Source of the DNA: Marinobacter sp.
Lineage (GTDB): Bacteria; Pseudomonadota; Gammaproteobacteria; Pseudomonadales; Oleiphilaceae
Direction of reading: 5' to 3'
Assembly (NCBI GenBank): GCA_014359475.1
Contig: JACIZI010000026.1
Coordinates: 1 to 59,466 of the forward strand
Length of the DNA: 59,466 bases
Shown: piece by piece, positions 23,773 to 59,464 of the stretch
Position numbering within the stretch: position 1 is the stretch's first letter
Layout of the letters: each line of letters begins with the position of its first letter
Translations under genes and position numbers: made by a program
Notes under the pieces: model-generated
What the model saw: the letters and a program-made list of their open reading frames with translations, nothing else
Told to the model about the DNA's origin: nothing
Databases searched by the model: none

Positions 23773-23880
23773 CCGAGAGCAGACTGCTTCCCAAAACACG
23801 CTCCTTGCGGCACATCCCTGTGGCGCTTGGGCTCCGCCATCCCTGGCTCCGCACAGTTTTGGAAAGCAGTCTGCTCTCGG
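23773..23880. repeat. Long stem-loop, arm-variable family, member 1
   Basis: Arms 23773-23797 and 23856-23880 pair over 25 bp with one mismatch, around a 58-nt loop. The loop contains ACATCCCTGT and a GGCTCCGCCATCC segment shared with the members at 57998 and 59351. The arm sequence is private to this copy except for the inner GTTTTGGAAA, which resembles the inner arm of the other members. It lies between nosZ and nosD, which are co-directional. Confidence 0.8.
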
Positions 23881-23933
23881 ATTGCCCAGCCTCCGATGGG
23901 GGCCGAGACAACTCCAACCTCTGAGAGAACTTG

Positions 23934-25202
23934 ATGTCCCAATTTTTGCGTTATGGGGGGGGCCTGACAGTCGCTCTGTTATCGCTGACCGCGAACGCGG
24001 GCCTGCAAGCACAGCTTGATGCACTGGAACCGGGCGCGAGCTTTGAGCTTCCCCCTAAGCAGATTTCGTCTCTGGCAATCCGGGTGCCCGGGGTGTCTGT
24101 GTCTTGCCATGCCGAGACGGTGATTGACCCGGGCGGGCAGGGCAATGCGGTGGATATCGTCGCCGAGAGGGTGACATTTTCCGGCTGTGTCGTTCGCAAC
24201 TGGGGCAGCAATCTGAACGAGCTGGACGCGGGGATTTTTGTGGCGCCGGAGGCTCGAGGCGCTGTGATTGAGAACAACCGTCTGCAGGGGCCGGCATTCG
24301 GGGTCTGGCTGGATGCGACGCCGGATGTGACGGTTCGCAATAACAGGATTCGCGGTGATGTGAGTATGCGTCCGAATGACCGGGGAAACGGGATTCACCT
24401 GTTCAATACCACCGGGGCGCTGATTGAGGGCAATGATATTCGTCAGACCCGGGATGCAATTTATATCGAGACGGCCAATAACAATACCATCCGGGGCAAC
24501 GAGATGTCGGATCTGCGTTATGGTATTCATTACATGTATTCGATGAATAATCTTCTGGAGGGCAACGTCACCCGGAACACGCGGACCGGTTATGCGCTGA
24601 TGCAGAGCAAGCGGCTGAAGGTGATCAATAACCGGTCGGTGAATGATGAGAATTACGGGATTCTGATGAACTTCATTACCCAGTCGGAGCTGCGGGGTAA
24701 TGTGGTTACCGGGGTGTCACAAGGTCGCACTGGTGGTGTGGCGATTGAGGGGGCCGAGGGCAAGGCGGTGTTCATTTATAATTCCCTGTACAACTCCTTC
24801 GAGGGCAATCTGTTTGCCGACAGCAACATTGGCATACACCTGACAGCCGGCTCGGAGGATAACGAGGTGTTCGGAAATGCCTTTGTGAACAATCAGCGCC
24901 AGGTGAAGTACGTGGCCACTCGCACCCAGGAATGGTCGGAGAGTGGCAGGGGCAATTACTGGAGTGACTACCTGGGCTGGGATCGTAACCAGGATGGAAT
25001 CGGGGACGTGCCCTATGAGCCCAACGACAATGTGGACCGGCTGCTGTGGAAGTATCCGGAAGCACGGGTACTGATGTTCAGTCCGGCGGTGGATACCCTG
25101 CGCTGGGTGCAGGATGCCTTTCCGGTGGTCAAGGCGGCCGGGGTAACCGATCCACATCCGCTGATGCGCATTCCCGACGCTCTGCAACCGGAGATCCGAT
25201 GA
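23934..25202 (+). CDS. nosD: NosD, periplasmic copper-site maturation protein
   Basis: The 422-residue protein has a signal peptide (ending about TANAGLQ) and a right-handed parallel beta-helix seen as repeated N-x-I/L-x-G-N units (for example [39 protein letters not shown]). NosD works with the NosFY ABC transporter to assemble the CuZ site of NosZ. The ATG at 23934 is used, with GAGAG upstream. Its stop codon overlaps the nosF start in an ATGA junction. The 228 bp gap from nosZ holds two hairpin structures. Confidence 0.93.
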
Positions 25203-26131
25203 ACTGTTTCAGACTGGAGAATGTCAGCCACCGCTATGACAGGGCGATGGTACTGCACGGTGTTGACCTGCGTCTGCAACCCGGGGAGATTCTCGGGTTG
25301 TTTGGCCATAACGGGGCAGGCAAGACCACCTCGATCAAGCTGGTCCTGGGATTGATGAAACCCAGCGAAGGCCGGGTGTCGGTGCTGGATGGAGAGGCGG
25401 GAGATCCGCAGGTCACCCAGCACATCGGATATCTGCCCGAGAACGTGATGTTTTACCCGCAACTGACGGGGCGGGAGATTCTGCGACATTTTGCGCGACT
25501 TAAGGGTGCCTCTCTACAGCAGGTACCCGAGCTGCTCAAGCAGGTGGGTCTCGGTGATGCCATGGATACCCGCACCAAGACCTACTCCAAGGGCATGCGT
25601 CAGCGGCTGGGGCTGGCCCAGGCGTTGCTGGGCCGACCGAAACTGCTGATGCTGGATGAGCCTACCGTGGGGCTGGACCCTGTTGCCACCGCCGATCTGT
25701 ACCACCTGCTTCGTGAACTTCGGGACCGGGGCACTGGTGTTGTGCTGTGTTCCCATGTACTGCCGGGGGTGGAGCCCTATATCGACCGCGCGGCGATTCT
25801 GACCAACGGTGCCGTTAAGGCTCACGGCGATCTCCCATCCCTGCGCCGACAGGCGAATATGCCGGTGACCCTCAGCCTTGAGCCGGCGGGCACCATGAGC
25901 GAATTGGAGAAGGCAATGGAGCAGGCCCGCGCCAGCACCGGCCTGATGATGAAAAGCGAGAACGGACGACTGCAGGTGGATGTGAAGCCCCACGATAAAA
26001 TGCCGCTGATCCGCAGCCTGATGGCTTCCGGCGAGCTGGCGGACATTTCCATTCACCAGCCGAGTCTGGAGGATATCTACGTGCACTTTATCGGTGCCGG
26101 TGGTCTGGCCCACCGGGGAGGCAACCAATGA
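25199..26131 (+). CDS. nosF: NosF, ABC transporter ATPase for nos maturation
   Basis: The 310-residue ATPase has Walker [10 protein letters not shown] (about 36-44), the signature [13 protein letters not shown], Walker [13 protein letters not shown] and the switch histidine in LCSHVL. It pairs with NosY and NosD in copper-site assembly, probably moving a sulfur species. The start overlaps the nosD stop by 4 bp, and its own end overlaps nosY in the same way, so the three are coupled. Confidence 0.94.
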
Positions 26132-26958
26132 ACGCCGTCTGGACCATTGCCCGTAAAGAACTCAGCGACAGCTTGCGTAATCGCTGGCTGGTGGCCATCT
26201 CTCTGGTTTTTGCCACCCTGGCGCTGGGCATTGCCTGGTTCGGTGCTGCTGCATCCGGGCAGGTGGGTTACGCCTCCACCCCGGCTACCATTGCCAGCCT
26301 CGCCAGCCTGGGCATTTTCCTGATCCCGCTGATTGCGTTGCTGCTGGCCTACGATACCATTGTGGGGGAGGACGAAGGTGGCACCCTGCTGTTGCTGATG
26401 ACCTATCCCCTCAGCCGCAGTCAACTGCTGCTCGGCAAGTTCCTCGGCCATGGCCTGACCCTTGCGCTGGCCACACTGATTGGCTTCGGCGTGGCCGGTA
26501 TCGCCATAGTGCTGCTGGTGGAGGATGTGGCTATTGTCAGCCTTGCCGTGGCGCTGGGGCGTTTTATCGGCTCCACCATATTGCTGGGCTGGGGATTCAT
26601 TGCCCTGGCTTATCTGGTGAGCGTCCGGGTCAGCGAGAAACCGGTAGCGGCGGGCCTGGCGCTGGCCATCTGGTTTTTCTTTGTGCTGATTTTCGACCTG
26701 ATGCTGCTCGGTATTCTGGTGGCCAGTGAAGGCAAGCTGAATCCGGAGTTGCTGCCCTGGTTGCTGATGCTCAACCCCACCGACATCTACCGGTTACTGA
26801 ATATCGTGGCATTTGGCGACACCAGCCAGCTCAGTGGTGTGCTGAGCCTGGGCAGCGACCTGCCCGTGGGGCCCGGCGGCCTGTGGCTGGCGCTGGTGAT
26901 GTGGTGTGTTGTGCCGCTGGCCTGTGCTCTTTTGTTGTTCCGTAAGCGCCGGATCTGA
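26128..26958 (+). CDS. nosY: NosY, ABC transporter permease
   Basis: The 276-residue protein has six hydrophobic segments and the N-terminal [16 protein letters not shown] amphipathic stretch typical of NosY and related ABC-2 permeases. It forms the membrane part of the NosFY transporter. It is the last nos gene here; no nosL copper chaperone follows, since the next gene is moaA on the opposite strand. nosL may be encoded elsewhere. Confidence 0.93.
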
Positions 26959-27028
26959 CCCCTTGGAGACCCGATCCCGTGCACTCAGGTGACGGCAGTC
27001 GCGGCAGGTTATGGATCACTGACCGGGA

Positions 27029-28021
27029 TCAGCCGCCGGTCATATTCATGAAGCGCAGGATCTGCACGTCGCCATCGCTGGAGAAGTGGTGGCGTTCGGG
27101 CTTCAGGTCCATGGCGCGGATGATGGTGTCCCGGAGTTTCCGGTCATGGTCCGGGTGAGCGCGCAGAACCCGCATCAGGTCCACAGAGTGCTCGTTGCCC
27201 AGGCACAGCAACAATCTTCCTTCCACCGTCACCCGTACCCGGTTGCAGTCTCCGCAGAAATTGTGGGAGTGGGGTGAGATAAAACCGACCCGTACCGGAC
27301 TGTCGGGCATCCGGTAGTAGCGGGAGGGGCCGCCGGTATCGTCGGTGGTGGGCATCAGATCGTGGTGCTGGCGGATCAGCGTGCGGACTTCATCGGAAGA
27401 GCACAGGGCCAGCCCCCGGTCGTGTTCGGAGATCTCGCCCAGGGGCATTTCCTCAATAAAGCTGATGTCCAGCCGCTTGCGACGGGCGAACTCGATCAGT
27501 TCCGGTACTTCCTGGTCGTTGCGTCCTTTCATCACCACTGTGTTGAGCTTGATCCGGTCAAACCCTGCATCCCGTGCGGCATCAATGCCTTCCAGGACAC
27601 GGCTGAGGGTGCCGGTGCGGGTAATGGTGCGGAATTTATCCGCATCAAGGGAATCCAGGCTGATATTCAGCCGGCCCAGACCCGCCTTGCGCAGAGGCTC
27701 TGCCAGTTCCGGCAGCTTCTGGCCGTTGGTAGTCATGGCAAAGTCCCGCAGGCCCAGGGTGCCGATTTCCTGTACCAGATCGACAATGCCCCGGCGAACC
27801 AGCGGCTCACCGCCGGTCAGGCGGATCTTGTCGGTGCCCAGTTCATTGAAGTTGCGTGCCAGCCGGGCGATTTCCTCAAGGGTGAGAATGCGGGCCCGGG
27901 GCAGGAATGTCATGTCTTCCGCCATGCAGTAGACGCAGCGGAAGTCGCAGCGGTCGGTGACCGACAGGCGCACGTAGTTTATGGTGCGGCCAAAGCGGTC
28001 TGTCAGCGGGCTTTCGGTCAT
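27029..28021 (-). CDS. moaA: GTP 3',8-cyclase, molybdenum cofactor synthesis
   Basis: MoaA is a radical SAM enzyme for the first step of molybdopterin synthesis. The 330-residue protein has the N-terminal cluster C25-x3-C29-x2-C32 ([10 protein letters not shown]), the GGEPLVR motif, the C-terminal cluster in [11 protein letters not shown] with a third Cys in LLLCLG, and the conserved C-terminal Gly-Gly (MTGG). The ATG at 28021 with GGGAG upstream is preferred to longer starts. Molybdenum cofactor is needed by nitrate reductase, consistent with the neighbouring nar and nos genes. Confidence 0.95.
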
Positions 28022-28175
28022 GATTCTCCCTGCGGATGAGATGGCTCCTGCTGAGTATCGCAGAATTGCAGCGGTTTTCCGAGTCATCAGCACTTGAGCC
28101 GGATTGGCAGAACTGCCGGGGAAAGTCCGGTAGAATGGCGCTTGTCAGGTGCCGGAACGATCAGAGCAGGCAGCG

Positions 28176-28541
28176 ATGTCAATGGGCAAAACCGGATACA
28201 GGTTTCTTGCGTATATCTTTGCAGGTCTCGGGACGCTGGGCATTCTTCTCCCGGTGCTGCCAACCACGCCGTTTATTTTGCTGGCTGCACTCTGCGCCTC
28301 CCGGGGATCACCGGCATTTGCCCGTTGGCTGGATAACCACCCCACCTATGGGCCCATGCTGGATAACTGGCGGCAAAACCGGGCGGTACCTCTGAAAGCC
28401 AAGTGGCTGGCCTGCTCCATGATGTCCCTGAGTTGGCTGCTACTGGTGGTGCTCGGAGCCCACTGGCTGGTACTTACGGTCGCCGGAGGCTCCATGATGG
28501 CCGTGGCCTGCTATCTGGTCAGCCGCCCGACAGCATCCTGA
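28176..28541 (+). CDS. DUF454 (YbaN-type) small inner-membrane protein
   Basis: The 121-residue protein has hydrophobic segments at about 9-35 and 75-110 with a short conserved motif between them: GILLPVLPTTPF and SRGSPAFARWLDNHPTYGP, which are DUF454 hallmarks. AGCAGG lies 5-6 bp before the ATG at 28176. In denitrifiers DUF454 genes often sit near nitrogen-oxide genes; its molecular role is not known. It precedes nsrR by 24 bp and may be co-transcribed with it. Confidence 0.8.
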   Translation: MSMGKTGYRFLAYIFAGLGTLGILLPVLPTTPFILLAALCASRGSPAFARWLDNHPTYGPMLDNWRQNRAVPLKAKWLACSMMSLSWLLLVVLGAHWLVLTVAGGSMMAVACYLVSRPTAS

Positions 28542-28565
28542 AACGTCTCCACACTGGGGTAATAC

Positions 28566-29006
28566 ATGCACATCACCCGTTATACCGACTACTCCCTGAG
28601 AGTTCTGATCTATCTTTCCATGCAGGGTGGTGACCGCCTTTCTACCATACAGCAGATTGCCGACAGTTATGAGATATCCCGCAATCACCTGATGAAGGTA
28701 GTGCATCATCTCAATAAGAAGGGCTACATCGAAACGGTACGGGGCAAACACGGTGGAATGCGCCTCCACATGCCGCCGGATAAAATCAATATTGGCATTC
28801 TGGTGCGCGAAACCGAGCAGGACCTGAACGTGGTAGAGTGTTTCTCCTCGAAGAACCGATGCGGGATTACGCCAGTGTGTGGCCTGCGGTCCATGTTCGG
28901 CGAGGCGCTGAATGCCTTCCTCTCGGTCCTGGACAAATACACTCTCGCGGATGTCATTGACGATGGCCATCAGTCCCAGGTACTCCGCCTGCTACAGATC
29001 GCCTGA
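28566..29006 (+). CDS. nsrR: NsrR, Rrf2-family nitric-oxide-sensing repressor
   Basis: The 146-residue protein has the NsrR/Rrf2 N-terminus MHITRYTDYSLRVLIYL, a winged HTH (IADSYEISRNHLMKVV) and three cluster cysteines C92, C99 and C105 (ECFSSKNRCGITPVC), as in NO-sensing NsrR with its iron-sulfur cluster. It probably represses NO detoxification and related genes. The location between moaA and the desC-like gene, close to nos, supports the NO role. Confidence 0.92.
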   Translation: MHITRYTDYSLRVLIYLSMQGGDRLSTIQQIADSYEISRNHLMKVVHHLNKKGYIETVRGKHGGMRLHMPPDKINIGILVRETEQDLNVVECFSSKNRCGITPVCGLRSMFGEALNAFLSVLDKYTLADVIDDGHQSQVLRLLQIA

Positions 29007-29060
29007 GGGAATGCATAAGCATACCAATAAAAAGTCCCCGGCAGGAAAACCCGCCAGGGA

Positions 29061-29162
29061 TCAAGGGGCAAGAAGAGCGCATGTCGCGCCGGTCAGTTTA
29101 TTGACCGCAGTGCCAATGGCCTGGCGGCCGCTGCACTGGTGGTAAATACCCGTGCGACAGTC
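29061..29162 (-). pseudogene. Decayed 2Fe-2S ferredoxin tail of the desC-like gene
   Basis: Reading on past the TAA stop of the upstream frame gives DCRTGIYHQCSGRQAIGTAV then NKLTGAT, in the same frame, to a TGA at 29061. This lines up with the plant-type ferredoxin end of related reductases (Y-G-C-R-M-G-I-C-H-x-C). Here the Tyr codon is the stop and the second cluster Cys is Tyr. Both changes would abolish a normal 2Fe-2S site, so the tail looks dead. Confidence 0.65.
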
Positions 29163-30113
29163 TTAGTGTGGTGTCAGCTTGGCGGCTTCTGTAGCTTCCA
29201 CCAGAGCAGCGTCGCCCTCAGAGGAAGCCTCCGGTTCGCTGGACTCGAGGCGAACCTCACCACCCATTTCCTCACTGTCGATGGGTGCCGCTGTGGCTGC
29301 GAAGACGGTGCTGTGAATACGGTCTTCGCCAATGCCACGCTGATACAGCAGATCCTCTGCAAGATCCATCAGTCCCTTGGGGCCGCACAGATAGAAGCGA
29401 CGGGCCTTTACGCCGGGCACGGCATTCAGATCTTCGTCGTTCAGGTAGCGAGGCTCGCTGCGCTCATGGGTGTGCACCACCTTGAGTGTGAATGCCGGCC
29501 ACTGGTTCCTGAGTTTGTGCAAGCGTTCGGCGGCGATCACATCTTCCGCGGTACGCACGTAGTACAGCAGGGTAACAGGGGCCTTGTACTGGGTTGCTGC
29601 CAGGTGCTCGAGATGACTCAATACCGGTGTGATTCCGCTACCGCCGGCGATGTAGAGCAGCGGCTCCTCCTGCTTTGGAACCAGAAACTCCCCGAATGCC
29701 TCGTCCAGGCCAATTACGGAACCGGTTTGCAGGTGGTCATGCATCCAGTTGGTCACCAGACCACCGGGGAAGCGCTTGGTGGTCAGTGTAACGGTGCCCG
29801 AAGTTTCCCACTGTTCCGGTGAGCTGGACAGGCTGAAGGTCTGATTGCGACGGATGCCATCAATATCGATACAGATGTTCACGTGCTGGCCGGCACGAAA
29901 TCCGGCCCAGCGACTGGCCGGACGAAGGACAAAGGTTTTGGTGTCTGCGGTCTCGTCCCGGACCTCTTCAACTTGCGCCGGTGTGTACTGTTGTGTCCAA
30001 ATTGGATTGACACTTTCCAGCATGGGATCGATGTTTGCAGCTGGCTCTTCACGGTTGAAAATCTGCTTTCCGAGCCAGCGCAGTGCGGGTGTTTTTTCAA
30101 GTCTGGACATCAT
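29163..30113 (-). CDS. DesC-like flavin oxidoreductase, truncated before its ferredoxin domain
   Basis: The 316-residue protein has an FAD-binding reductase domain (RNQTFSLSSSP, GGLVTNWMHDHL) and an NAD-binding domain (YIAGGSGITPVLSHLEHL, LCGPKGLMD). Relatives of about 360 residues end in a 2Fe-2S ferredoxin; this one stops at EAAKLTPH, just where the first cluster Cys should come. The downstream remnant is at 29061-29162. The divergent TetR gene and operators match DesT, so this is probably the reductase that supplies electrons to an acyl-CoA delta-9 desaturase. No desB follows. It may be inactive, or may use a separate ferredoxin. Confidence 0.75.
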   Translation of the reverse strand: MMSRLEKTPALRWLGKQIFNREEPAANIDPMLESVNPIWTQQYTPAQVEEVRDETADTKTFVLRPASRWAGFRAGQHVNICIDIDGIRRNQTFSLSSSPEQWETSGTVTLTTKRFPGGLVTNWMHDHLQTGSVIGLDEAFGEFLVPKQEEPLLYIAGGSGITPVLSHLEHLAATQYKAPVTLLYYVRTAEDVIAAERLHKLRNQWPAFTLKVVHTHERSEPRYLNDEDLNAVPGVKARRFYLCGPKGLMDLAEDLLYQRGIGEDRIHSTVFAATAAPIDSEEMGGEVRLESSEPEASSEGDAALVEATEAAKLTPH

Positions 30114-30128
30114 AGCTTCTCTCCAGGT

Positions 30129-30164
30129 GTGTACAAGTGTTCACTGATGTGTACGAATGTACAC
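30129..30164. promoter_or_regulatory. Tandem DesT-type operators
   Basis: GTGTACAAGTGTTCAC (30129-30144) and GTGTACGAATGTACAC (30149-30164) are inverted repeats whose centres are 20 bp apart, two helical turns. The reverse complement of the first, GTGAACACTTGTACAC, closely follows the DesT operator pattern known from Pseudomonas. They lie directly upstream of the desC-like start, so bound repressor would block it. Confidence 0.65.
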
Positions 30165-30243
30165 AGAGAATGTTTCAGGCACAATCAAGGAGATGTCTAT
30201 TGGCTCAAAATGACAAGAATTCGATGCTCAAATATTTCCATAT

Positions 30244-30259
30244 GTGTACACTTGTCACC
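30244..30259. promoter_or_regulatory. Third, weaker DesT-type operator
   Basis: GTGTAC-ACTT-GTCACC keeps one perfect half-site and 4 of 6 bases of the other. It lies 28 bp before the desT start, suited to autoregulation. Confidence 0.45.
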
Positions 30260-30286
30260 ATCTGAACGGATGATGCGGTAATAACA

Positions 30287-30910
30287 ATGACTCAAAAACA
30301 ACGACGCAAACCCGGTGAGACCCGGGACAAGCTGATGAGGGCAGCTCTGGACCTGGTTGGCAAAGGGAGACACTTTGCCAGTCTTGGCATCCGCGAAGTC
30401 ACCCGCCAGGCAGGGGTTGTGCCTACTTCCTTCTATCGTCATTTCCGCAATATGGATGATCTGGGGCTGCAACTGGTGGACGAGCTGGGCCTTGTGTTGA
30501 GGCGCATGATGCGCGAAACCCGTGCTAACGCCAGTCAGGCAGAAAAGCTGATGAGTGAATCAGTGGCCACCTTTGTCAGCCATGTCCAGGCAAACCGCAG
30601 CTTCTTTCTGTTTATGGCCCAGGGCATGGCAGGGGAGAGCCGGGCAGTGCAGGATGCCATTCGTAGCGAGATGCGCTTTTTCTCCAGTGAACTGGCCAAC
30701 GACCTGCGGCGGTTACGGCTGGTGGATCATCTCAATGACAGCGACCTGAATATGGTGTGTGATCTGGTGGTGCGGGCGGTAGCGTTCAGCTTGCCGGATC
30801 TGCTCTGGGTGTCTCCGGACGATGGCTATCAGACTGACCTGATCCGGGAACAGACCACCCGCTACCTGCAGCTGATTTTTGTGGGTGCGGCTAACTGGAA
30901 AAGCCAGTAG
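30287..30910 (+). CDS. desT: TetR-family regulator, DesT-like
   Basis: The 207-residue protein has a TetR HTH (about 10-60: IREVTRQAGVVPTSFYRHFRN) and an all-helical ligand domain. Divergent placement beside a desC-like reductase and the operators between them match DesT, which in Pseudomonas senses the balance of saturated and unsaturated acyl-CoAs and represses desCB. The N-terminal QRRKPGETRDKLMRAALDL also fits the DesT/FabR group. The ligand is inferred from family and locus structure. Confidence 0.75.
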   Translation: MTQKQRRKPGETRDKLMRAALDLVGKGRHFASLGIREVTRQAGVVPTSFYRHFRNMDDLGLQLVDELGLVLRRMMRETRANASQAEKLMSESVATFVSHVQANRSFFLFMAQGMAGESRAVQDAIRSEMRFFSSELANDLRRLRLVDHLNDSDLNMVCDLVVRAVAFSLPDLLWVSPDDGYQTDLIREQTTRYLQLIFVGAANWKSQ

Positions 30911-31151
30911 TTTGTGCTCATTCCGGGGCGGCTACGCCTTCCGGGCTTTTGTCGGCGTTGTGTGGGACGGCGATTTATGCGCATTTGCCGCTTTATCTGA
31001 CTGGTCTGTAATTGGTCATTCTGCCCGCCTTTGCCGACTCGAAAGACAGGGGCTTGACGAAGTGGCGCTGATAAGCTGTTTGACCCTGGCATAACGGCGC
31101 TTGGGACCGCTGCCGGTCTGTGCAACAGAGACAAAGCAAAGGATAACAACA

Positions 31152-32270: not shown

Positions 32271-32273
32271 CCC

Positions 32274-34400: not shown

Positions 34401-34403
34401 TAC

Positions 34404-37270: not shown

Positions 37271-37290
37271 GGAACCACTCCCGTTGGTCG

Positions 37291-39213: not shown

Positions 39214-39515
39214 AGATGCCCCTCGCTTGCTATATTCAGCTTTGTTACACGCAGATTCCCCGTTTGTCTGGTTGCCACCGCCTGGGTGGGTTGGTCAGTG
39301 AGTGGAGTCGGGTAGTACCGGTCCGGGCGCTGATTTTTTCCAGGCCGGTTAATCTGAGCTTAGTTCAAGCTTGCAAGGTTGGACAGATGGATTAGCGTAT
39401 CGGTTCATTAATTCTTGTTACCGGTGGTTGATTTTGGGAGCCTCTCACATTCCTCTCCGGTCAAACTCCGGTGGTGCCCGCCCGGCGATACCCGTGATGT
39501 TTCAGGGCGGGTATG

Positions 39516-39589
39516 GGAGATGGGGTTCAGAAACGGATCGATGTCTGAGCGTAGCGAGTTTATTCGATCCGTTTCTGAACCCCATCTCC
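39516..39589. repeat. Long stem-loop, arm-variable family, member 2
   Basis: Arms 39516-39541 and 39564-39589 are perfectly complementary over 26 bp around a 22-nt loop; weaker pairing extends further out. The inner part CGTTTCTGAA matches the arms of the member at 59351, but this copy lacks the shared loop core. It lies between tpm and prkA, both on the minus strand, in a 420 bp gene-free stretch. Confidence 0.8.
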
Positions 39590-39633
39590 TATGACCGTCC
39601 CTCCCCAAAAACCCGCAGTCTACAACAGGCCGC

Positions 39634-41794: not shown

Positions 41795-41840
41795 TCAGGG
41801 AGATGCCTCAGGTTGTTGCGCCCCCAGCACCCAACCGCAG

Positions 41841-43909: not shown

Positions 43910-43913
43910 GGGT

Positions 43914-45940: not shown

Positions 45941-46056
45941 GCGTATCCACATCTCCTGAAGATAGGTTAACCCCTTCCTCTGTCATTCTTGCCGTTATGC
46001 TTGACCAGGTTACCGGGTGGCCCGCCTCGTAACAGACGGAATCGCTATCGCATCTG

Positions 46057-46803: not shown

Positions 46804-46815
46804 GGATGCTTACCT

Positions 46816-47487: not shown

Positions 47488-47565
47488 GTGAGGAGTCTCC
47501 GTAGACCGGGGCTGATAATCCCGGGGCGCGCGTGTCCACCCCGGTGTGACGGTGGGTCAGGTGAA

Positions 47566-48327: not shown

Positions 48328-48364
48328 AGCAACTCCTGTGTTAAAAAAGGTAACAAAGAAAAGT

Positions 48365-48541
48365 CTAGCAGCCTGTCGGACTTAAGCAATCTTAAGTAAT
48401 TGTCGCGAGCAAGGTGGGAAGGCGAGCGCAGGTTTTCTGGGTGTTGAGGTGCATAGTAGTTCTATGCAACGAAAAACCGGGGGATGTGAGCCGTTTTCCC
48501 ACCGGCGCAGTCGATTAGCCTTAAGTCCGACAGGCTGCCAG
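48365..48541 (+). repeat. TIR element, copy 3, upstream of glnH
   Basis: The core 48369-48537 is 169 bp, flanked by CTAG (48365-48368) and CCAG (48538-48541). It matches copy 2 in the same orientation, except for a tandem duplication of about 10 bp, CTTAAGCAAT-CTTAAGTAAT, at its left end. The left end faces glnH. Copies 1 and 2 also turn this end toward a start codon. Confidence 0.85.
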
Positions 48542-48600
48542 ACCAGGATCCGGTGATTTGCAGGGAAACAGCAAAAGGGGGGCAACTTCGTGGAAGCGGC

Positions 48601-48628
48601 GTGGTGCCGGCCATTAAGCCGGTACCAC
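48601..48628 (-). terminator. Hairpin downstream of metF
   Basis: GTGGTGCCGGC pairs with GCCGGTACCAC with one mismatch around a 6-nt loop, 17 bp past the metF stop on the minus strand. No strong T-run follows, so this is a modest candidate. Confidence 0.35.
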
Positions 48629-48644
48629 TCGTTGCAGGTCGGGG

Positions 48645-49514: not shown

Positions 49515-49526
49515 GGGTCCGTCCGA

Positions 49527-50921: not shown

Positions 50922-50951
50922 GGTGTTCTCCTGTATCTAGGGATTCTTTTG

Positions 50952-51019
50952 GCCGCGGAAACCGCGGAAGGACGCGGAAAACAGAAATTAAAGTCTTTTC
51001 TTCCGCGTTTTTCCGCGGC
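50952..51019. repeat. GC-rich inverted repeat between metK and ahcY
   Basis: The first 29 bases, built on GCCGCGGAAACCGCGG, are identical to the left end of the repeat at 56561. The right end TTCCGCGGC (51011-51019) closes the inverted repeat. It lies between two genes of the same operon and could form an intercistronic hairpin in their mRNA. Confidence 0.7.
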
Positions 51020-51029
51020 AATTAAGGCT

Positions 51030-52220
51030 TTAAACGCCCGCCGCGTCTTTCAGGGCTGCGGCGCGGTCGGTTTTTTCCCAGGGGAAGGCGGTAAAGGTCT
51101 TGCCTCCCACTGTCATTTCAAACGGCTCGCGGCCGAAGTGGCCGTAAGCTGCGGTGTGCTGGTACATCGGGTGCAGCAGGTCGAGCATGTTGGTGATGGC
51201 ATAGGGCCGCAGGTCGAAGTGCTGGCGGATCAATTCGATGATCTTGTTGTCGGCCAGCTTGCCGGTTCCGAAGGTATTTACGGAGATTGAGGTCGGTTGG
51301 GCCACGCCGATGGCGTAGGACACCTGAATCTCGCATTTCTCGGCCAGGCCGGCGGCGACGATGTTTTTGGCCACATAGCGACCGGCGTAGGCAGCCGACC
51401 GGTCAACCTTGGAAGGATCCTTGCCGGAGAAAGCGCCGCCACCGTGGCGGGCCATGCCGCCGTAGGTGTCGACGATGATTTTGCGGCCGGTCAGGCCACA
51501 GTCACCCACCGGGCCGCCGATCACAAACTTGCCCGTCGGGTTGATGTGGAACCGGGTGTCACTGTGCAGCAGGTTGGCCGGCAGCACGTTCTTGACGATC
51601 AGCTCCATGACCGCCTCTTTCAGATCCTCCTGGGTGACATCTTCATCGTGCTGGGTGGACAGCACCACAGCGTCGATGCCCACCACCTGGCCGTTCTCGT
51701 AGCGGCAGGTGACCTGGCTCTTGGCGTCCGGGCGCAGCCAGGGCAGCAGGCCGCTCTTGCGGGCTTCCGCCTGGCGTTCCACCAGGCGATGCGCAAAAGT
51801 GATCGGCGCGGGCATCAGTACTTCGGTCTCGTTGCTGGCGTAGCCGAACATCAGACCCTGGTCGCCGGCTCCCTGATCCTCGGGTTTCTTGCGGTCGACA
51901 CCCTGTGCAATGTCCACCGACTGCTTGCCGATAATGTTGATGATGCCGCAGGTGTCGCCGTCGTAGCCGACATCAGAAGAGGTGTAGCCCACGTCCTTGA
52001 TCACACCCCGCACCAGATCTTCGAGATCCACCCAGGCATTGGTGGTTATTTCACCGCCGACAATGGCCACACCGGTTTTTACCATGGTTTCGCAGGCAAC
52101 CCGTGCGTGGGGGTCGTCGGTCAGGATGGCATCCAGTACCGCATCTGAAATACGGTCTGCGAGTTTGTCCGGGTGGCCCTCGGACACAGACTCGGAGGTG
52201 AAGATACTGTAGTCAGACAT
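51030..52220 (-). CDS. metK: S-adenosylmethionine synthetase
   Basis: MetK makes S-adenosylmethionine from methionine and ATP. The 396-residue protein has [62 protein letters not shown], all family signatures. AGAGGAGCA precedes the ATG. A SahR-type operator lies 94 bp upstream of the start (52314-52331). Confidence 0.97.
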
Positions 52221-52313
52221 AATCGTGCTCCTCTCTGAGCGTTCTCGAATTCGGACCGGCGGGGCCGGTGTTGTTTTGGTTCAGTCACGGATACGTAATA
52301 ATACGTACATCTG

Positions 52314-52331
52314 TATCAAAAAACTTTGATA
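52314..52331. promoter_or_regulatory. SahR-type operator upstream of metK
   Basis: TATCAA-AAAACT-TTGATA is a 6-6-6 inverted repeat between sahR and metK. The same half-sites and spacing recur at 53381-53398 upstream of sahR. A second symmetric sequence, TACGTAATAATACGTA (52292-52307), lies next to it on the metK side. On location alone the regulator is most likely the ArsR-methyltransferase protein. Confidence 0.7.
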
Positions 52332-52341
52332 TTCGTTTTGC

Positions 52342-53337
52342 TCAGGCATCCGCTGTCTTCCAGAACTCGCGGACCTGGACCTGGAAGCCGTTACGCAGGC
52401 CGATAAACAGTTGTTCACCGGCTTTCAGGCCCGCATCCGTCGCCCAGGCAGTCAATTCTTCCGGCTCAAAACCCAGCCACAGGTCGCCGCAGTTTTCCCT
52501 GGCCCAGTCCTGATCATGGCTGCACAGGTCACTGATCATCAGGCAGGCATCGTTGTTCATCAGCGCCGAGGCATCCAGGAAAATATCTGCCGGGCTGGGT
52601 ACATGGTGCAACACCATATTGGCCACCACCAGATCAAAGGCATCGCCTCTGGCCAGCAAGTTATCGGTCACACCTTCAATCAGATCGACATTGGTCAGTC
52701 TCTGGTCGATGCAGTTGCGACTGGCCTTGGTCAGCATGTCCCGGGAGTTGTCCAGGGCAACCACGTGCTCGCCAACCTCCGCCAGCACCGGCAGGAATGC
52801 GCCTTCTCCCGGGCCGATTTCCAGCACTGATGGCCATTTGCGTCCTTTCGCCCGGCCACGCAACAGGTTTGCAACGGGTTCCGCATACAGGTCAAAGGCT
52901 GCAATCAGTTCCTGCTGTTCCCGGAATTTTTCGGCGTGGCGGGCGAAAAACGCCCGGGACTGTTCGGCTCGCTGGGCCCGGATGGCATCAATGCGTTCCT
53001 GCAGATGTGCCGGCAGGGTAGAACAATCCACCAGCTCAAAAATCTGCCGCGCGGCCCGGTCCTCCAGTCGGTTGCTGCCCAGGTTCAGGCGCCGCCGGTA
53101 GAAAATGGCGTTTCCTTCCCTTTGGGGTTCCAGCAATCCCGCCTTGTGCAGCACCTTCAGGTGGTGGCTCATGCCGGACTGACGCATGTCGAACATCTGG
53201 CTCAGTTCCAGGACCCCGAAGGTGTCCCGCCGCAGCACACGCAGAATCTCCAGGCGTAACGGATCACCACTGGCCTTGTAGATGGGGGCCAGTGTTTCCG
53301 GTGCTGCCTGATCTGTGGGGGCGGTCAGTGAGCTCAT
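52342..53337 (-). CDS. sahR: SahR-type ArsR regulator fused to a SAM-methyltransferase domain
   Basis: The 331-residue protein has an ArsR-type winged HTH (LRVLRRDTFGVLELSQMFDMRQSGMSHHLKVL segment, about 30-65) followed by a class I methyltransferase-like domain (VLEIGPGEGAFLPVLAEVG, VVANMVLHHVPSP). This fusion, next to metK and ahcY, is the SahR regulator that responds to S-adenosylhomocysteine in Proteobacteria. The ATG at 53337 is preferred; a TTG at 53370 would add 11 residues. Operators flank the gene on both sides. Confidence 0.85.
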   Translation of the reverse strand: MSSLTAPTDQAAPETLAPIYKASGDPLRLEILRVLRRDTFGVLELSQMFDMRQSGMSHHLKVLHKAGLLEPQREGNAIFYRRRLNLGSNRLEDRAARQIFELVDCSTLPAHLQERIDAIRAQRAEQSRAFFARHAEKFREQQELIAAFDLYAEPVANLLRGRAKGRKWPSVLEIGPGEGAFLPVLAEVGEHVVALDNSRDMLTKASRNCIDQRLTNVDLIEGVTDNLLARGDAFDLVVANMVLHHVPSPADIFLDASALMNNDACLMISDLCSHDQDWARENCGDLWLGFEPEELTAWATDAGLKAGEQLFIGLRNGFQVQVREFWKTADA

Positions 53338-53379
53338 GGAAATGGAGTTTAGGCGGGTTGGGATGGTCAATCAATATAC

Positions 53380-53399
53380 ATATCAAAAAAAATTGATAT
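53380..53399. promoter_or_regulatory. SahR-type operator upstream of sahR
   Basis: ATATCAA-AAAAAA-TTGATAT is a perfect inverted repeat between divergent sahR and tktA. It is 42 bp from the sahR ATG and about 119 bp from the tktA ATG, so autoregulation is more likely than control of tktA. Confidence 0.7.
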
Positions 53400-53517
53400 A
53401 GATTCAGGGTGAAGCTTGATTTGCCCCGGGGGTAACTAATCGGCGAAAATACGCGCCTTCTTTTTAACCAGCTCGAGCAGCCGGATTCTTTTCCCGAAAA
53501 TTACTGGAGAATAGTCA

Positions 53518-55518
53518 ATGCCGTCCCGTAAAGATCTCGCCAACGCCATTCGCGCGCTGAGCATGGATGCGGTTCAGAAAGCCAAGTCCGGCCACCCGGG
53601 TGCGCCCATGGGTATGGCGGATATCGCCGAGGTGCTGTGGAATGATTACCTGAGACACAACCCGGCCAACCCGCAGTGGGCCAACCGTGACCGTTTCGTA
53701 CTTTCCAACGGCCACGGCTCCATGCTGCAGTATTCGCTGCTGCACCTGAGCGGGTATGACCTGAGCATTGACGACATCAAGAACTTCCGTCAGCTGCACT
53801 CGAAAACCCCGGGCCACCCCGAGTACGGTTACACTCCCGGGATCGAGACCACCACCGGTCCGCTGGGGCAGGGCATGGCCAACGCCGTGGGTTTTGCGAT
53901 TGCCGAGAAATCCCTGGCAGCACAGTTCAACCTGCCCGGGCATGAGATTGTTGACCACTACACCTATGCCTTTCTGGGGGACGGCTGTCTGATGGAGGGC
54001 ATATCCCATGAGGTATCGTCCCTGGCAGGCACCCTTGGGCTGGGCAAGCTCATCATGTTCTACGATGACAACGGCATCTCCATTGACGGGGAGGTGGATG
54101 GCTGGTTCACCGATGACACCCCGATGCGCTTTGAGTCCTACGGCTGGCAGGTGATTGCTGCCGTTGACGGCCACGATCCCGAAGCTGTGCGTGCGGCCAT
54201 TGAAGCCGGCCGCGCCAACAAGCGGCAGCCCACGCTGATCTGCTGCAAGACCATTATCGGCTTCGGCTCTCCCAATAAGCAGGGTACCGAAGCTTCCCAC
54301 GGTGCCGCGCTGGGTGAAGAGGAAGTCCAGTTGACCCGCAGGGAGCTGGGCTGGGAGCACGGGCCGTTCGAAGTGCCCTCTGAGATCTATGCCGGTTGGG
54401 ATGCCCGCGAGAAAGGCGCTGCCGCCCAGCAGGCCTGGGAAGAGAAGTTTGCGGCTTACGAAAAAGCCGAGCCGGCACTGGCTGCCGAATTCAAGCGTCG
54501 TATGGCGGGCGACCTGCCTGTCGACTTTGCCGAAAAGGCTCAGGCCTACGTTGAAGAATGTCAGGGAAAGGGTGAATCCATTGCTTCCCGCAAGGCTTCC
54601 CAGAACACCCTCAACGCCTACGGCCCGCTGTTGCCGGAACTGATGGGCGGCTCTGCCGACCTGGCCGCCTCCAACCTGACCCTCTGGTCTGACAGCAAGG
54701 GCCTGACCAGCGACGACGCCTCCGGCAACTACATCTATTACGGTGTACGGGAATTCGGTATGGCAGCCATCATGAACGGTATCGCACTGCACGGCGGTTT
54801 TGTGCCCTACGGTGCCACCTTCCTGATCTTTATGGAGTATTGTCGCAATGCCGTGCGCATGGCCGCGCTGATGAGGCAACGCTCCATTTTCGTGTTCACC
54901 CATGACTCCATCGGCCTGGGCGAGGACGGCCCCACCCACCAGCCGGTCGAACAACTGGCCAGCCTGCGTACCACGCCGAACATGAGCACCTGGCGCCCCG
55001 CGGATACCGTGGAAACCGCGGTTGCCTGGAAAGCCGCCCTGGAGCGTCAGGACGGGCCGACCGCCCTGGTTTTCTCGCGCCAGGGGCTGCCGCACCAGGA
55101 CCGTGATGCCAGCCAGCTGGCGGACATTGCCAAAGGCGGCTACATCCTGTCAGACAGCGAAGGTACACCGGAGCTGATTCTCATCGCCACCGGCGGCGAA
55201 GTGGGTATTGCCCAGGACGCCGCGGCGAAGCTGCGGGAGCAGGGCAAGGCCATACGGGTGGTTTCCATGCCCTCCACCGACGTGTTCGATGCCCAGAGTG
55301 CCGAGTACAGGCAAAAGGTACTGCCGCTGGAAATCACCAACCGCGTCGTGGTGGAAGCCAGCATCGCCGACTACTGGTACAAGTACGTTGGCCTGGACGG
55401 ACGGATTGTGGGTATGACCACCTTCGGTGAATCCGCGCCGGCCGGCGACCTGTTCAAGGAATTCGGCTTCACCGTCGAAAATATCCTGGAAGTGGCCGAC
55501 GAACTGCTGGATGCCTGA
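53518..55518 (+). CDS. tktA: Transketolase
   Basis: Transketolase moves two-carbon units in the pentose phosphate pathway and Calvin-type reactions. The 666-residue protein has [19 protein letters not shown], the ThDP motif [13 protein letters not shown] to [18 protein letters not shown] and [20 protein letters not shown] lies 8-9 bp before the ATG. It heads tktA-epd-pgk-fba, and epd follows within 7 bp. Confidence 0.97.
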
Positions 55519-55525
55519 TGAGCTG

Positions 55526-56557
55526 ATGAGCAACGCCAAGCCTTTCCGGATAGCCATCAACGGGTACGGCCGTATCGGCCAGTGCGTGTTGCGGGCACTG
55601 TATGAGAACGGCTATCGCGACCAGCTTCAGGTGGTCGCGATCAACGAGTTGTCGGATATCGACACCATCGCCCACCTGACCCGCTATGACTCCACCCACG
55701 GGCGGTTTCAGGGCGCGGTGTCGGTTGATCAGGACTACCTGGTCGTCAATGGTGACCGCATCCGCGTGCTGCGCCATCCGGATCCGGCGGAGTTGCCCTG
55801 GCGACTGCTGGATATCGACCTGGTGCTGGAGTGTTCCGGCGCATACTCCGACCGGGCCACCGCTGAAAAGCACATTGAAGCGGGCGCCAGCCGCCTGCTT
55901 TTTTCCCAGCCGGGAGAGCCGGATGTGGATCGCACGGTGGTGTTCGGCATCAACGACAATGCCCTGAACCATGGTGATGTCATTGTTGCCGCCGGTTCCT
56001 GCACCACCAACTGCCTGGTGCCGGTGGTCAAAGTCCTGGATGACGCACTGGGCGTGGAGCAGGGCAGTACCACCACCATTCATGCGGCCATGAACGACCA
56101 GCCGGTGATCGACGCCTACCACCACCAGGACCTGCGGCGCACCCGCAGCGCACTGCACAACATCGTACCGGTGGACACCGGCCTGGCGCGCGGAGTGGAA
56201 CGGTTGCTCCCCCACATGGAAGGCCGCTTCAGCTCCGTCGCCATACGCGTGCCCACCCTGAACGTGTCTGCCATCGATATGGTGGTCAATGTACGCAAGG
56301 CCACGGATGTTGGTACGGTTAACCGGATTCTGGCGGACGCAGCCCGGGGATCCCTGAAAGGCATTCTTGGCTACACCGACGAACTGCTCGCCAGTTCCGA
56401 CTTCAACCACGACTCCCGCTCCGGCGTGGTCGACGGCGGCCAGACCAGAGTCACCGGCGGCACCATGGTCAAGGTATTGTGCTGGTTCGACAACGAATGG
56501 GGCTTCGCTAACCGCATGCTGGATGTGAGCAAGGTCTGGCTTGAGAGGACTGATTGA
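55526..56557 (+). CDS. epd: Erythrose-4-phosphate / glyceraldehyde-3-phosphate dehydrogenase
   Basis: The 343-residue NAD enzyme has INGYGRIGQ, the catalytic Cys C159 in SCTTNCLVP, and NDQPVIDAYHHQDLRRTRSA, which fits Epd better than GapA. It serves vitamin B6 synthesis and in some relatives also glycolytic flux. The ATG at 55526 is preferred; an in-frame ATG at 55511 would overlap tktA. A long inverted repeat separates it from pgk. Confidence 0.88.
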   Translation: MSNAKPFRIAINGYGRIGQCVLRALYENGYRDQLQVVAINELSDIDTIAHLTRYDSTHGRFQGAVSVDQDYLVVNGDRIRVLRHPDPAELPWRLLDIDLVLECSGAYSDRATAEKHIEAGASRLLFSQPGEPDVDRTVVFGINDNALNHGDVIVAAGSCTTNCLVPVVKVLDDALGVEQGSTTTIHAAMNDQPVIDAYHHQDLRRTRSALHNIVPVDTGLARGVERLLPHMEGRFSSVAIRVPTLNVSAIDMVVNVRKATDVGTVNRILADAARGSLKGILGYTDELLASSDFNHDSRSGVVDGGQTRVTGGTMVKVLCWFDNEWGFANRMLDVSKVWLERTD

Positions 56558-56560
56558 TTA

Positions 56561-56744
56561 GCCGCGGAAACCGCGGAAGGACGCGGAAAGTCGCGGAAAT
56601 AAAAGATGGAAAACATTTTAACCATGAAATGCACGAAAGAGTACGAAAGAAAAAACAAAGATATTTTTTAACGCCGTTAATCTTTTTTCGTGGCAAACAG
56701 TCTTTGTGGTTGTTTATTCCTCGTCCTTCCGCGGTTTCCGCGGC
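56561..56744. repeat. GC-rich inverted repeat element between epd and pgk
   Basis: A 184 bp element begins 4 bp after the epd stop. Its ends, 56561-56583 and 56722-56744, are perfect inverted repeats of 23 bp based on CCGCGGAAACCGCGG. The inside is A/T-rich with repeated ACGAAAG units and a partial inner palindrome. The left end equals that of the repeat at 50952. It fills most of the 224 bp epd-pgk gap and may hold the pgk promoter. Confidence 0.8.
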
Positions 56745-56781
56745 AAAATGCTTTTAACCCGTAGATAATGGAACTGTAACT

Positions 56782-57942
56782 ATGGCCATCAAGAAAATGA
56801 CTGACCTGGACCTCGCTGGCAAGCGGGTTCTGATTCGTGAAGACCTGAACGTACCGGTCAAAGGCGGCAAGGTAACCAGCGATGCCCGCATCCGTGCCTC
56901 GCTGCCCACCATCAAGGCAGCCAACGAGGCCGGAGCCAGCGTTATGCTGATGTCCCACCTCGGTCGCCCGGAAGAAGGCGTGTACGACGAGGCGGCCTCC
57001 ATGAAACCGGTGGCCGAGCACCTCAGCACCCTGCTGGGCCAGGAAGTGCGCCTGGTCAAGGACTACCTGGACGGCGTCGAAGTCAGCGACGGGGAGGTGG
57101 TGCTGTTCGAAAACGTCCGCTTCAACAAGGGCGAAAAGAAAGACGACGAAGCACTGTCCAGAAAGTACGCTGCCCTGTGCGACGTGTTCGTCATGGATGC
57201 CTTTGGCACCGCCCACCGCGCCCAGGCCTCCACCCACGGCGTGGCCAGATTCGCTCCCGAAGCCTGTGCAGGTCCCCTGCTGGCAGCAGAACTGGAAGCC
57301 CTCGGCAAAGCCCTGGACAACCCGGCCAAGCCCGTCGTCGCCATTGTCGGTGGCTCCAAAGTCTCCACTAAACTGGATGTTCTCAACGCCCTGGAAAAAG
57401 TCTGCGACCAGATCATCGTTGGCGGCGGCATCGCCAACACCTTCCTGGCCGCAGCCGGTCACCCGGTGGGCAAGTCCCTGTGCGAGCACGATCTGGTCGA
57501 CACCGCAAAAGACATCGCGTCCCGGGTCAGCATCCCCCTGCCGGTAGACGTTGTTGTTGCGTCTGAATTTTCAGAGACCGCCACCGCCACCGTCAAAAAC
57601 ATCTCCGACGTCACCGCCGACGACATGATCCTCGACGTCGGCCCCGAAACCGCCGGCGAATTCGCCCAACTGCTTAAAAACGCCAAAACCATCCTCTGGA
57701 ACGGCCCCGTCGGCGTCTTCGAATTCGACCAGTTCGGCAACGGCACCAAAGCCCTGGCCAACGCCATCGCCGAAAGCGACGCCTTCTCCCTGGCCGGTGG
57801 CGGCGATACTGTCGCCGCCGTTGACAAATACGGCGTAGCTGACAAGATCTCCTACATCTCAACCGGCGGCGGTGCCTTCCTGGAATTCGTGGAAGGCAAA
57901 ACCCTCCCGGCGGTAGCCGTATTGGAAGAACGAGGTAACTAA
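56782..57942 (+). CDS. pgk: Phosphoglycerate kinase
   Basis: Pgk interconverts 1,3-bisphosphoglycerate and 3-phosphoglycerate with ATP formation. The 386-residue protein has [67 protein letters not shown] and [13 protein letters not shown]. Length is normal. No pyruvate kinase gene lies between it and fba, unlike in some relatives; a structured non-coding element is there instead. Confidence 0.97.
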
Positions 57943-57997
57943 ACCTCCGGCCGACAGTATTTGGCTGGAGTTATCGCAAAGGCAGAATCGCAAGGAG

Positions 57998-58182
57998 CAG
58001 GGGGAGGGGCTTTCCGAAACCGTCTCTGGCCAAGGATGGCCAGAGCCGAGCCCCTACAGGGGTGAGGCCGAGCGCTTATAAAGCGAAGCTTTATGCGACA
58101 GCCTCACGACCGCAATCTGCGATTGCGGGCCGGACCCGCTTGCGGGGGTTTACGGGCGTGTTTCGGAAAGCCCCTCCCCCTG
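57998..58182. repeat. Multi-branched stem-loop, arm-variable family, member 3
   Basis: A perfect 23 bp closing stem (57998-58020 with 58160-58182) encloses several local hairpins. These are CTCTGGCC/GGCCAGAG (58024-58045), GTGAGGC/GCCTCAC (58062-58107) around ATAAAGC/GCTTTAT (58078-58094), CCGCAATC/GATTGCGG (58110-58128) and CCCGC/GCGGG (58135-58146). The part from 58021 to about 58060 is the reverse complement of the core in the member at 59351. It occupies most of the 300 bp gene-free gap between pgk and fba. Confidence 0.85.
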
Positions 58183-58242
58183 GTCCGCCGCAGACTCCAG
58201 AATCAGCAATCTACTCACTTTTAAGAGCAAGGAGAGAAACCC

Positions 58243-59307
58243 ATGGCCCTGATATCAATGCGGCAACTCCTCGACCACGCCGCCGAGCATGGTTACGGTG
58301 TACCCGCCTTCAACGTCAACAACCTCGAACAAATGCGCGCCATCATGGAAGCCGCCGACAAGACCGATTCCCCGGTAATTGTCCAGGCCTCCGCCGGTGC
58401 CCGCAAATACGCCGGTGCCCCGTTCCTGCGCCACCTCATCCTGGCTGCCATTGAAGAATTTCCCCACATCCCCGTGGTCATGCACCAGGACCACGGCACC
58501 AGCCCCTCGGTGTGCCAACGCTCCATCCAGTTGGGCTTCAGCTCCGTCATGATGGACGGCTCCCTGGGCGAAGACGGTAAGACCCCGACCGACTACGAAT
58601 ACAACGTTGACGTCACCCGCCGCACCGTCGAAATGGCCCACGCCTGCGGTGTCTCCGTGGAAGGCGAACTGGGCTGCCTGGGCTCCCTGGAAACCGGCCA
58701 GGCCGGCGAAGAAGATGGCATCGGTGCCGAGGGCACCCTGGACCACAGCCAGATGCTGACCGACCCGGAAGAAGCCGCAGACTTCGTCAACAAGACCCAC
58801 GTGGACGCCCTGGCCATCGCCATCGGCACCAGCCACGGCGCCTACAAGTTCACCCGCCCGCCCACCGGCGACATTCTGGCCATCGAGCAGATCAAGAAAA
58901 TCCATGCCCGCATCCCCGACACCCACCTGGTGATGCATGGCTCCAGCTCGGTACCCCAGGAATGGCTGGAAATCATCAACCAGTACGGCGGTGAAATACC
59001 GGAAACCTATGGTGTTCCGGTGGAAGAAATCGTTGAGGGCATCAAGCACGGCGTACGTAAGGTCAATATCGACACCGACCTGCGCCTGGCCTCCACCGGC
59101 GCCGTCCGTCGCTTCCTGGCCCGGAACCCCGCCGAGTTCGACCCGCGCAAATACCTGAAAGAAACCATGAAGGCCATGACCGAGGTCTGCGTGGCCCGCT
59201 ACGAAGCCTTTGGAACAGCCGGCAACGCCAGCAGGATCAAACCGGTTAGCCTTGAACGCATGTTTGAGCGTTACGAAGCCGGGGAGCTTGATCCCAAGGT
59301 CAAATAA
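58243..59307 (+). CDS. fba: Class II fructose-bisphosphate aldolase
   Basis: The 354-residue zinc aldolase has [31 protein letters not shown] (zinc ligand His), [32 protein letters not shown] and [10 protein letters not shown], matching the CBB-type class II group. It splits fructose-1,6-bisphosphate or condenses triose phosphates. GGAG lies upstream of the ATG. It ends the tktA-epd-pgk-fba block and is followed by another long stem-loop. Confidence 0.96.
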
Positions 59308-59350
59308 CCTGGGTGCTTGCCCTCGTTGTAGCCTGATGGGTTTGGGGGAG

Positions 59351-59464
59351 GGAGTCGGCTCGGGAACCCTTTTCAGAAAACGCCCGTGAATACATCCCTG
59401 TAGGGCTCGGCTCTGGCCATCCATGGCCAGAGACGTTTCTGAAAAGGGTTCCCGACCCGTCTCT
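59351..59464. repeat. Long stem-loop, arm-variable family, member 4
   Basis: A perfect 20 bp stem (59360-59379 with 59436-59455) extends outward with two mismatches to about 29 bp. The loop has CATCCCTGTAGGGCTCGG followed by the hairpin CTCTGGCC/GGCCAGAG (59411-59432). This core is nearly identical, in the opposite orientation, to that of the member at 57998, while the arms differ entirely outside the inner GTTTC-GAAA part. It lies 43 bp past fba. Confidence 0.85.

Follow-up and report, generated by a model that had tools for sequence, protein, structure and literature searches.

The window analysed here, that is, the whole stretch of 59,466 nucleotides of Marinobacter sp. contig JACIZI010000026.1 (assembly GCA_014359475.1), carries four long intergenic hairpins, which are four of its five longest inverted repeats when arms up to 250 bp apart are considered. 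A sequence-only reading had described them as one family of stem-loops with a shared loop core and with arms that differ from copy to copy while pairing within each copy. All four palindromes are present, with arms that are 89-96% complementary, and the intergenic setting it gave holds, the sites being nosZ-nosD, tpm-prkA, pgk-fba and 3′ of fba. The claim of a single family stands for the hairpins at 23768, 57994 and 59352, which we call family 1, but not for the one at 39516, which has another core and belongs to a second family. For family 1, R denotes the strand on which both loops usually read C-ANGGAN-G, and the opposite strand is referred to as the plus strand of the element. The four elements and the two genes next to the last pair are:

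23768-23885, minus strand: element A, family 1, in the nosZ-nosD gap; 30-bp stem with arms 23768-23797 and 23856-23885 (93% complementary); loops at 23813-23820 and 23838-23845, both CANGGANG read on the minus strand.
39516-39589, plus strand: element B, family 2, in the tpm-prkA gap; 26-bp arms and a conserved loop, TGTCTGAGCGNAGCGAGTTT, without a GGA hexaloop.
56782-57942, plus strand: pgk, phosphoglycerate kinase (Pfam PF00162, E 1.2e-146).
57994-58186, plus strand (R is the plus strand of the window): element C, family 1, in the pgk-fba gap, with R sense to both genes; arms 57994-58020 and 58160-58186 (96% complementary).
58243-59307, plus strand: fba, class II fructose-bisphosphate aldolase (Pfam PF01116, E 7.6e-95).
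59352-59463, minus strand: element D, family 1, 3′ of fba; arms 59352-59379 and 59436-59463 (93% complementary); loops at 59393-59400 and 59418-59425, both CANGGANG read on the minus strand, which is also the strand matched by the covariance model.

On its R strand, a family-1 element would fold into a stem of about 30 bp enclosing two short hexaloop hairpins that fit a recognition site for a dimer of CsrA/RsmA. Both inner hairpins have the form C-ANGGAN-G, the two N positions being variable. A stem of 26-32 bp is typical of complete family-1 copies overall. Complete copies in the same genome mostly have a stem of 28-35 bp around the two small hairpins (a few have 20-25 bp), and among relatives the stem measures 26-31 bp in 139 of 169 cases. 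The shared loop core is not intact everywhere, since element C keeps just one small loop (58031-58038), the second being broken by a nested module and lacking GGA. By eye, this structured module of about 80 nt lies at about 58063-58144; it also occurs in the copies C85:36494 and C24:4316 and at the nosZ-nosD site of genome G029. There, a second module sits in the other loop, and in genome G060 that loop likewise has a module.

Next to the loops, the arms begin with 11 bp of the CTTTYCARRAC type that vary little. Further out they are copy-specific, except that 35 of 37 copies have a GG/CC step at positions 17-18, counted from the inner end. The arms are thus not wholly unrelated between copies, which corrects the sequence-only reading on this point. 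When G.T on the plus strand is counted as paired, the arms beyond the inner 11 bp pair to 74-98% within a copy versus 43-64% between copies (41 copies). An alignment of 37 copies has 93.0% of its cells paired, and it holds 417 double-change cells, compared with a mean of 134 in shuffles and 61-104 in slid controls, with double changes in 33 of the 45 stem pairs; further pair types did not exceed the shuffles in this alignment (84 vs 80.9). The arms thus covary more than chance would give, and pairing no better than in shuffled sequence, which would have refuted the sequence-only reading, was not what came out.

Three copies were folded on both strands, and every fold was better than its shuffles; folding energy therefore does not choose between the strands. 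The wobble pairs do so to some extent. In 40 copies of the same genome (stem positions 11-28), 30 A.C stand against 5 G.T on the plus strand, that is, wobbles favour R by 30:5, although the stem ends had been set allowing plus-strand wobbles, which biases against this result. Setting arms of different copies together gave 2610 R versus 2143 plus-strand wobbles (p ~1e-4 for the contrast). Among relatives, the inner 20 bp contain 34 R and 6 plus-strand wobbles (p ~4e-6 against one half), and the inner 18 bp, where the finder is strand-neutral, 25 and 6 (p ~4e-4). A count of 30:4 in distant copies was not used, because the search had allowed R wobbles and took at least one wrong palindrome (locus L309). 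This asymmetry makes R more likely to be the strand under selection for folding, be it as RNA or as single-stranded DNA.

Among 177 palindromes with loops of 40-79 nt at 139 loci of other genomes, two CANGGANG lie on one strand in 169, one in 4 and none in 4, as compared with two in 1 of 8850 shuffled loops. Many of these loci had been chosen by a pattern or model that contains the motif, so that a fairer measure comes from the fba loci, where 28 of 28 palindromes carry two (orthologous and hence not independent), and from the palindromes outside the seed pattern, where 36 of 43 do. The distance between the two GGA is 20-22 nt in 168 of the 169 cases and 25 nt in the remaining one.

A search for the core in this and related genomes, as the sequence-only reading had proposed, revealed a dispersed family. 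The genome itself (G000; 3.69 Mb in 85 contigs) holds 50 stretches that match element D, some of them single arms, and a core pattern finds 48 cores in the 147 kb of its loci that were fetched; a covariance model built from 37 copies, with up to 64 candidates scored per genome, finds at least 62. Thirteen inverted pairs of cores lie 219-271 bp apart, and one more at 668 bp. With the same model, family 1 was found in 37 of 37 genomes of the genus, at 3 to at least 64 copies each, and in 4 of 21 other genomes of the order. Among the matches listed, named contigs bearing the core are mostly Marinobacter, and the best named match to the window is locus L173 of Marinobacter flavimaris (82% over 6.4 kb). 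Several contigs (C29, C22, C51, C24 and C9), as well as the window at 59352-59466, stop inside or beside family copies, so that the assembly may have been interrupted by these hairpins. At its start, C29 is a 99% match to element D over 83 bp. In the literature searched by title and abstract, no description of family 1 in Marinobacter was found.

Among known systems, family 1 is closest to TwoAYGGAY (RF01731, clan CL00106), in which an outer stem likewise encloses a pair of hairpins with AYGGAY-type loops. Both traits are found in family 1, except that the second loop position can be any base and not only Y, and that element C does not have the two loops. The differences lie in the near-perfect stem of about 30 bp, the copy-specific arms and a copy number of at least 62 in a single genome. 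The window itself gives no Rfam hit at gathering scores. With the threshold relaxed to E ≤ 0.1, six of the 11 elements in six loci of this genome match RF01731 on R along the whole model, at 32.9-39.2 bits (gathering score 43), and element A is matched on its minus strand at 25.9 bits (E 0.25), below that score. The model matches 36 of 41 genomes in the genus at E ≤ 0.1, with scores above the cut-off in 7 of 41, and none of 14 control genomes. Across the class, matches at E ≤ 0.001 occur in at least 13 of 229 genomes, and in several of them at many loci (best 11 candidates per genome scored; under this cap the present genome shows none), which indicates that the TwoAYGGAY family is patchy and often multi-copy. 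A link between TwoAYGGAY and CsrA has been proposed before, by Gardner and Eldai. That proposal, made in 2014 with a CsrA motif predicted in TwoAYGGAY, describes the outer stem as poorly conserved (PMC4333381), and a table of Weinberg et al. classes TwoAYGGAY as probably an RNA and probably not cis-regulatory (PMC2864571).

Taken on these sequence comparisons, family 1 is probably a high-copy and divergent structured RNA of the TwoAYGGAY type, which would presumably bind CsrA and whose pairing is under selection. CsrA binding is our best guess as to its function and is predicted with a modest lean in its favour. ANGGAN is the hexaloop recognised by RsmE, the consensus obtained by systematic evolution of ligands by exponential enrichment (SELEX) is RUACARGGAUGU, and one dimer can bridge sites 10-63 nt apart, as stated in the cited part of PMC7652899; the cited part of a structural paper on RsmN uses the same ANGGAN consensus (PMC3791407). 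The GGA pairs of family 1 lie within this range, and their loops usually have ANGGAN closed by C-G, exceptions being the second loop of element C and that of most distant copies read. A CsrA gene was found in 40 of 41 genomes, the missing one being 62% complete, but since CsrA is widespread, its presence does not discriminate. The most likely activity would be the capture or bridging of the two loops by CsrA whenever R is transcribed, be it in read-through transcripts where genes converge, inside an operon (pgk-fba being an example) or in antisense RNA.

If so, the outer stem would mainly have to pair, such that its sequence could drift between copies and species as long as complementarity is kept. 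What keeps it would be compensatory selection on the folding of R, perhaps together with template switching in which one arm serves to correct its partner. Species pairs that share a core (loop identity at least 0.8) were compared at three sites, with 123 pairs at nosZ-nosD, 34 at pgk-fba (drawn from the R-orientation copies of 19 of 30 species, of which the finder missed G059) and 10 at the site of element B (11 of the 25 loci printed). At the arm positions, both sides had changed with Watson-Crick pairing in 996 cases and without pairing in 94, and one side in 187, which supports the claim that the arms are rewritten together; for 21 non-overlapping pairs the figures are 94, 4 and 19. A caveat is that the search for palindromes is itself biased against ends that do not pair. 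The corresponding figures for all species pairs taken together (4566, 374 and 496) mix core types and, at the site of B, opposite orientations, and they are not relied on, the register being unsure. Mean identities of arm, flank and loop in the same-core pairs are 0.76, 0.58 and 0.86 at nosZ-nosD, 0.61, 0.70 and 0.89 at pgk-fba, and 0.58, 0.59 and 0.95 at B, the loop values being high by choice. The arms are thus more conserved than the flanks at nosZ-nosD, less so at pgk-fba and equally so at B.

Arms that change at about the pace of the flanks while staying paired fit templated correction, which has been described for rRNA hairpins (PMC8794818, in the part cited). Such changes could also come from compensation in single steps, or from other copies replacing the original one. 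We consider template-switch correction of the arms possible but on balance doubtful, and rate it slightly lower than we initially did, because the arms are not faster than the flanks overall. The hairpins share with those of PMC8794818, as far as the cited text goes, that the sides of a paired stem change together, and they differ in that the latter were studied in RNA genes such as rRNA, whereas here a dispersed family offers many natural replicates. With so many paralogous and orthologous hairpins, one can ask whether stems change by stepwise compensation or by templated correction.

The position of the copies was determined for 167 of them, taken from named loci, the window and pieces of the same genome, using computed gene calls (codon or Markov statistics, 81% of bases coding). 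On the 3′ side of R, a gene on the opposite strand ends towards the element in 92 (medians 24-41 nt), a gene starts away from it in 42, and 33 could not be resolved or lie inside a called gene. The plus strand of the element hence often follows a stop codon, R often being antisense to that gene; in pgk-fba, R is sense to the genes.

A number of observations weigh against a CsrA-binding RNA under selection for pairing. R is antisense to the gene at its 3′ side in those 92 copies and sense in 42. Element C and likewise the copy C8:75484 lack the second GGA loop. In the first small hairpin the stems are stable, whereas most SELEX ligands had no more than four contiguous pairs (PMC7652899, same part). 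Most matches to RF01731 lie below its cut-off, the best locus of this genome among those scanned reaching 39.2 as against 43, and the model gives no match to elements C and D at E up to 1. Of 20 distant stretches taken from five other genomes of Gammaproteobacteria, 13 have ACGAY as their second loop, 5 have AGGAN and 1 has the full CANGGANG, with one unread because another palindrome was taken; ACGAY should not be bound by CsrA. A search for two CANGGANG recovered 1 of these 20, and with a looser palindrome search most hold one CANGGANG loop; in the genomes G219 and G207 the arms are, by eye, alike between copies. Since the distant copies differ in this way, the design with two GGA and copy-specific arms is a feature of the Marinobacter form. 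Finally, the nearest species pairs (arm identity 0.8-0.99) hold 16 two-sided paired and 11 one-sided changes. Single steps therefore occur and become visible when species are close, and these counts do not support template switching as the sole cause of arm change.

Orthologous sites (species tallied by eye from printed sequence) bear on how the copies arise, and they do not carry the same palindrome regardless of core. Of the 40 genomes in which fba was matched, 30 were read at the two sites next to it. The pgk-fba gap holds an element in R orientation in 19 of the 30 species, with at least four core types, one in plus orientation with other flanks in 2, a remnant in 1 and none in 8. The site 3′ of fba holds an element in 11 (in G035 with a broken right arm), a deletion remnant in 1, a bare hairpin in 2 and other, often terminator-like, sequence in 16. 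The nosZ-nosD gap was matched in 29 of 41 genomes and has the palindrome in 25 of the 29; part of the core is lost in G008, and nested modules sit in the loops in G029 and G060. Copies would thus seem to appear and vanish as units of arms and core. That the core instead inserts into the loops of pre-existing palindromes, such as terminators, was one option of the sequence-only reading, and we find it hardly credible. At nosZ-nosD, the four sites of 29 without element (G058, G015, G025 and G019) have no palindrome with 15-bp arms and a loop of at least 14 nt, and in G031, where the arms with their conserved inner motif are kept around a core reduced to 9 nt, the remnant between the arms indicates core deletion. 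The stem length of 26-31 bp in 139 of 169 and the constant distance of the GG/CC step from the core also speak against insertion. The site 3′ of fba is ambiguous in this respect, as the two bare hairpins (G009 and G022) have arms of 9-10 bp that equal the outer element arms of G002, G059 and G018.

A mobile element acting at the level of DNA, akin to repetitive extragenic palindromic (REP) sequences or miniature inverted-repeat transposable elements (MITEs), would explain why whole units are present or absent at orthologous sites and why genomes of a single genus carry anything from 3 to at least 64 copies. In that case R would fold in the form of single-stranded DNA, its loops and stem would serve in recognition by a transposase, and there would be no RNA function. 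G.T wobbles are tolerated in single-stranded DNA as well, and the words GCGATATC (median position -22) and CAGGCTAC (median +16) are over-represented in the sequence next to the stem, each in 17 of 209 copies; several other enriched flank words came from the repeated fba locus. Yet transposases of the Y1 (IS200/RAYT) type do not track the copies, since G001 has 56 copies without a Y1 match and G004 has 22 Y1 and 7 copies, so that RAYT/Y1 mobilisation was rejected. The core has no match in viral contigs (one exact pattern), element D has no blastn match in plasmids or phages, and an origin from phages, plasmids or viruses was set aside on these searches. Moreover, the loops vary at the two N positions of the CsrA site. 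We regard such an element as rather unlikely. Very improbable, in our view, is that the copies are terminators of the upstream gene, the plus-strand hairpin stopping RNA polymerase. This would suit the 92 of 167 copies in which the plus orientation begins a median of 24-41 nt past the stop codon of a co-directional gene, and the terminator-like hairpins that other species have 3′ of fba. Single copies with a T-run do exist, for example 3′ of fba in G002, but on average there is no U-tract after the plus-strand stem (in 163 copies, T makes up 59% at the position directly after the stem and 20-33% at the 15 that follow), the wobbles favour the opposite strand, and element A sits behind a separate hairpin that is terminator-like by sequence.

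The words GCGATATC and CAGGCTAC were also considered as an R-strand promoter; with 17 of 209 copies each, no promoter is claimed. Other, REP-like words, GTCGGATTAC and TAATCCGACCTAC, are enriched beside 12-16 of the 209 copies, in R-strand leaders about 45-65 nt before the stem.

Returning to family 1 as a CsrA-binding RNA, it differs from other known systems in how its parts are distributed. CsrA-sponge RNAs of the CsrB/RsmZ type have few loci with many GGA motifs each. They share with family 1 the GGA hexaloops in small hairpins, whereas family 1 has two loops per locus at many loci. REP and bacterial interspersed mosaic element (BIME) type repeats repeat the stem sequence itself. Like these and other intergenic palindromic repeats (PMC3733652, in the part cited), family 1 is intergenic, dispersed, palindromic and variable in copy number, but its outer stem is copy-specific while loops and inner stem are conserved. 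TwoAYGGAY lacked an assigned function, and now that a single genome of this genus is seen to hold at least 62 copies, its proposed link to CsrA becomes directly testable. A further and unlikely possibility is that family 1 forms a distributed sink for CsrA, with dozens of dimer-bridging two-loop sites in 3′ regions and operons and with arms rewritten by template switching. In that case, sites would be made by read-through and antisense transcription, which would tie CsrA activity to genome-wide transcription, and the rewriting of the arms would keep pairing while removing the sequence identity that lets copies recombine.

Element B had been suggested to be an empty copy of the same family. This was rejected, as it has its own loop and core and related members elsewhere. 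Its arms extend over 39505-39541 and 39564-39600 (89% complementary), the core part being 39516-39541 and 39564-39589. The core of B occurs at two more places in the genome, the end of contig C44 and the start of contig C4, possibly the two parts of a single element divided by a contig break. Family 2 (39516-39589; loci L261-L284, L047, L160 and L190) has the loop CTGAGCGNAGCGAGTT and copy-specific arms of 18-37 bp, with 15 distinct members among the fetched loci and a wobble asymmetry of 14:4 favouring the strand that bears CTGAGC. Its loop often contains GCGNAGC, a very stable DNA mini-hairpin. A family-2 hairpin was seen in the tpm-prkA gap in 11 of the 25 loci printed, in either orientation, and so these cannot all be the same insertion. 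That the arms behave similarly in this second family, whose loop is unrelated, suggests a process that does not depend on one particular core.

Two further repeats in the window deserve mention. Directly upstream of pgk, at 56558-56747, lies a 31-bp inverted repeat (94%) with 128 bp between its arms; it contains GGAAGGACGCGGAA, which also adjoins the family-1 copy C18:35700. In addition, 4239-4410 and 48363-48543 are two copies of a MITE-like unit of 172-181 bp, in which near-identical inverted ends of 24 bp (GTCTAGCAGCCTGTCGGACTTAAG) are separated by 124-133 bp; the unit seems to have no relation to the hairpin family.

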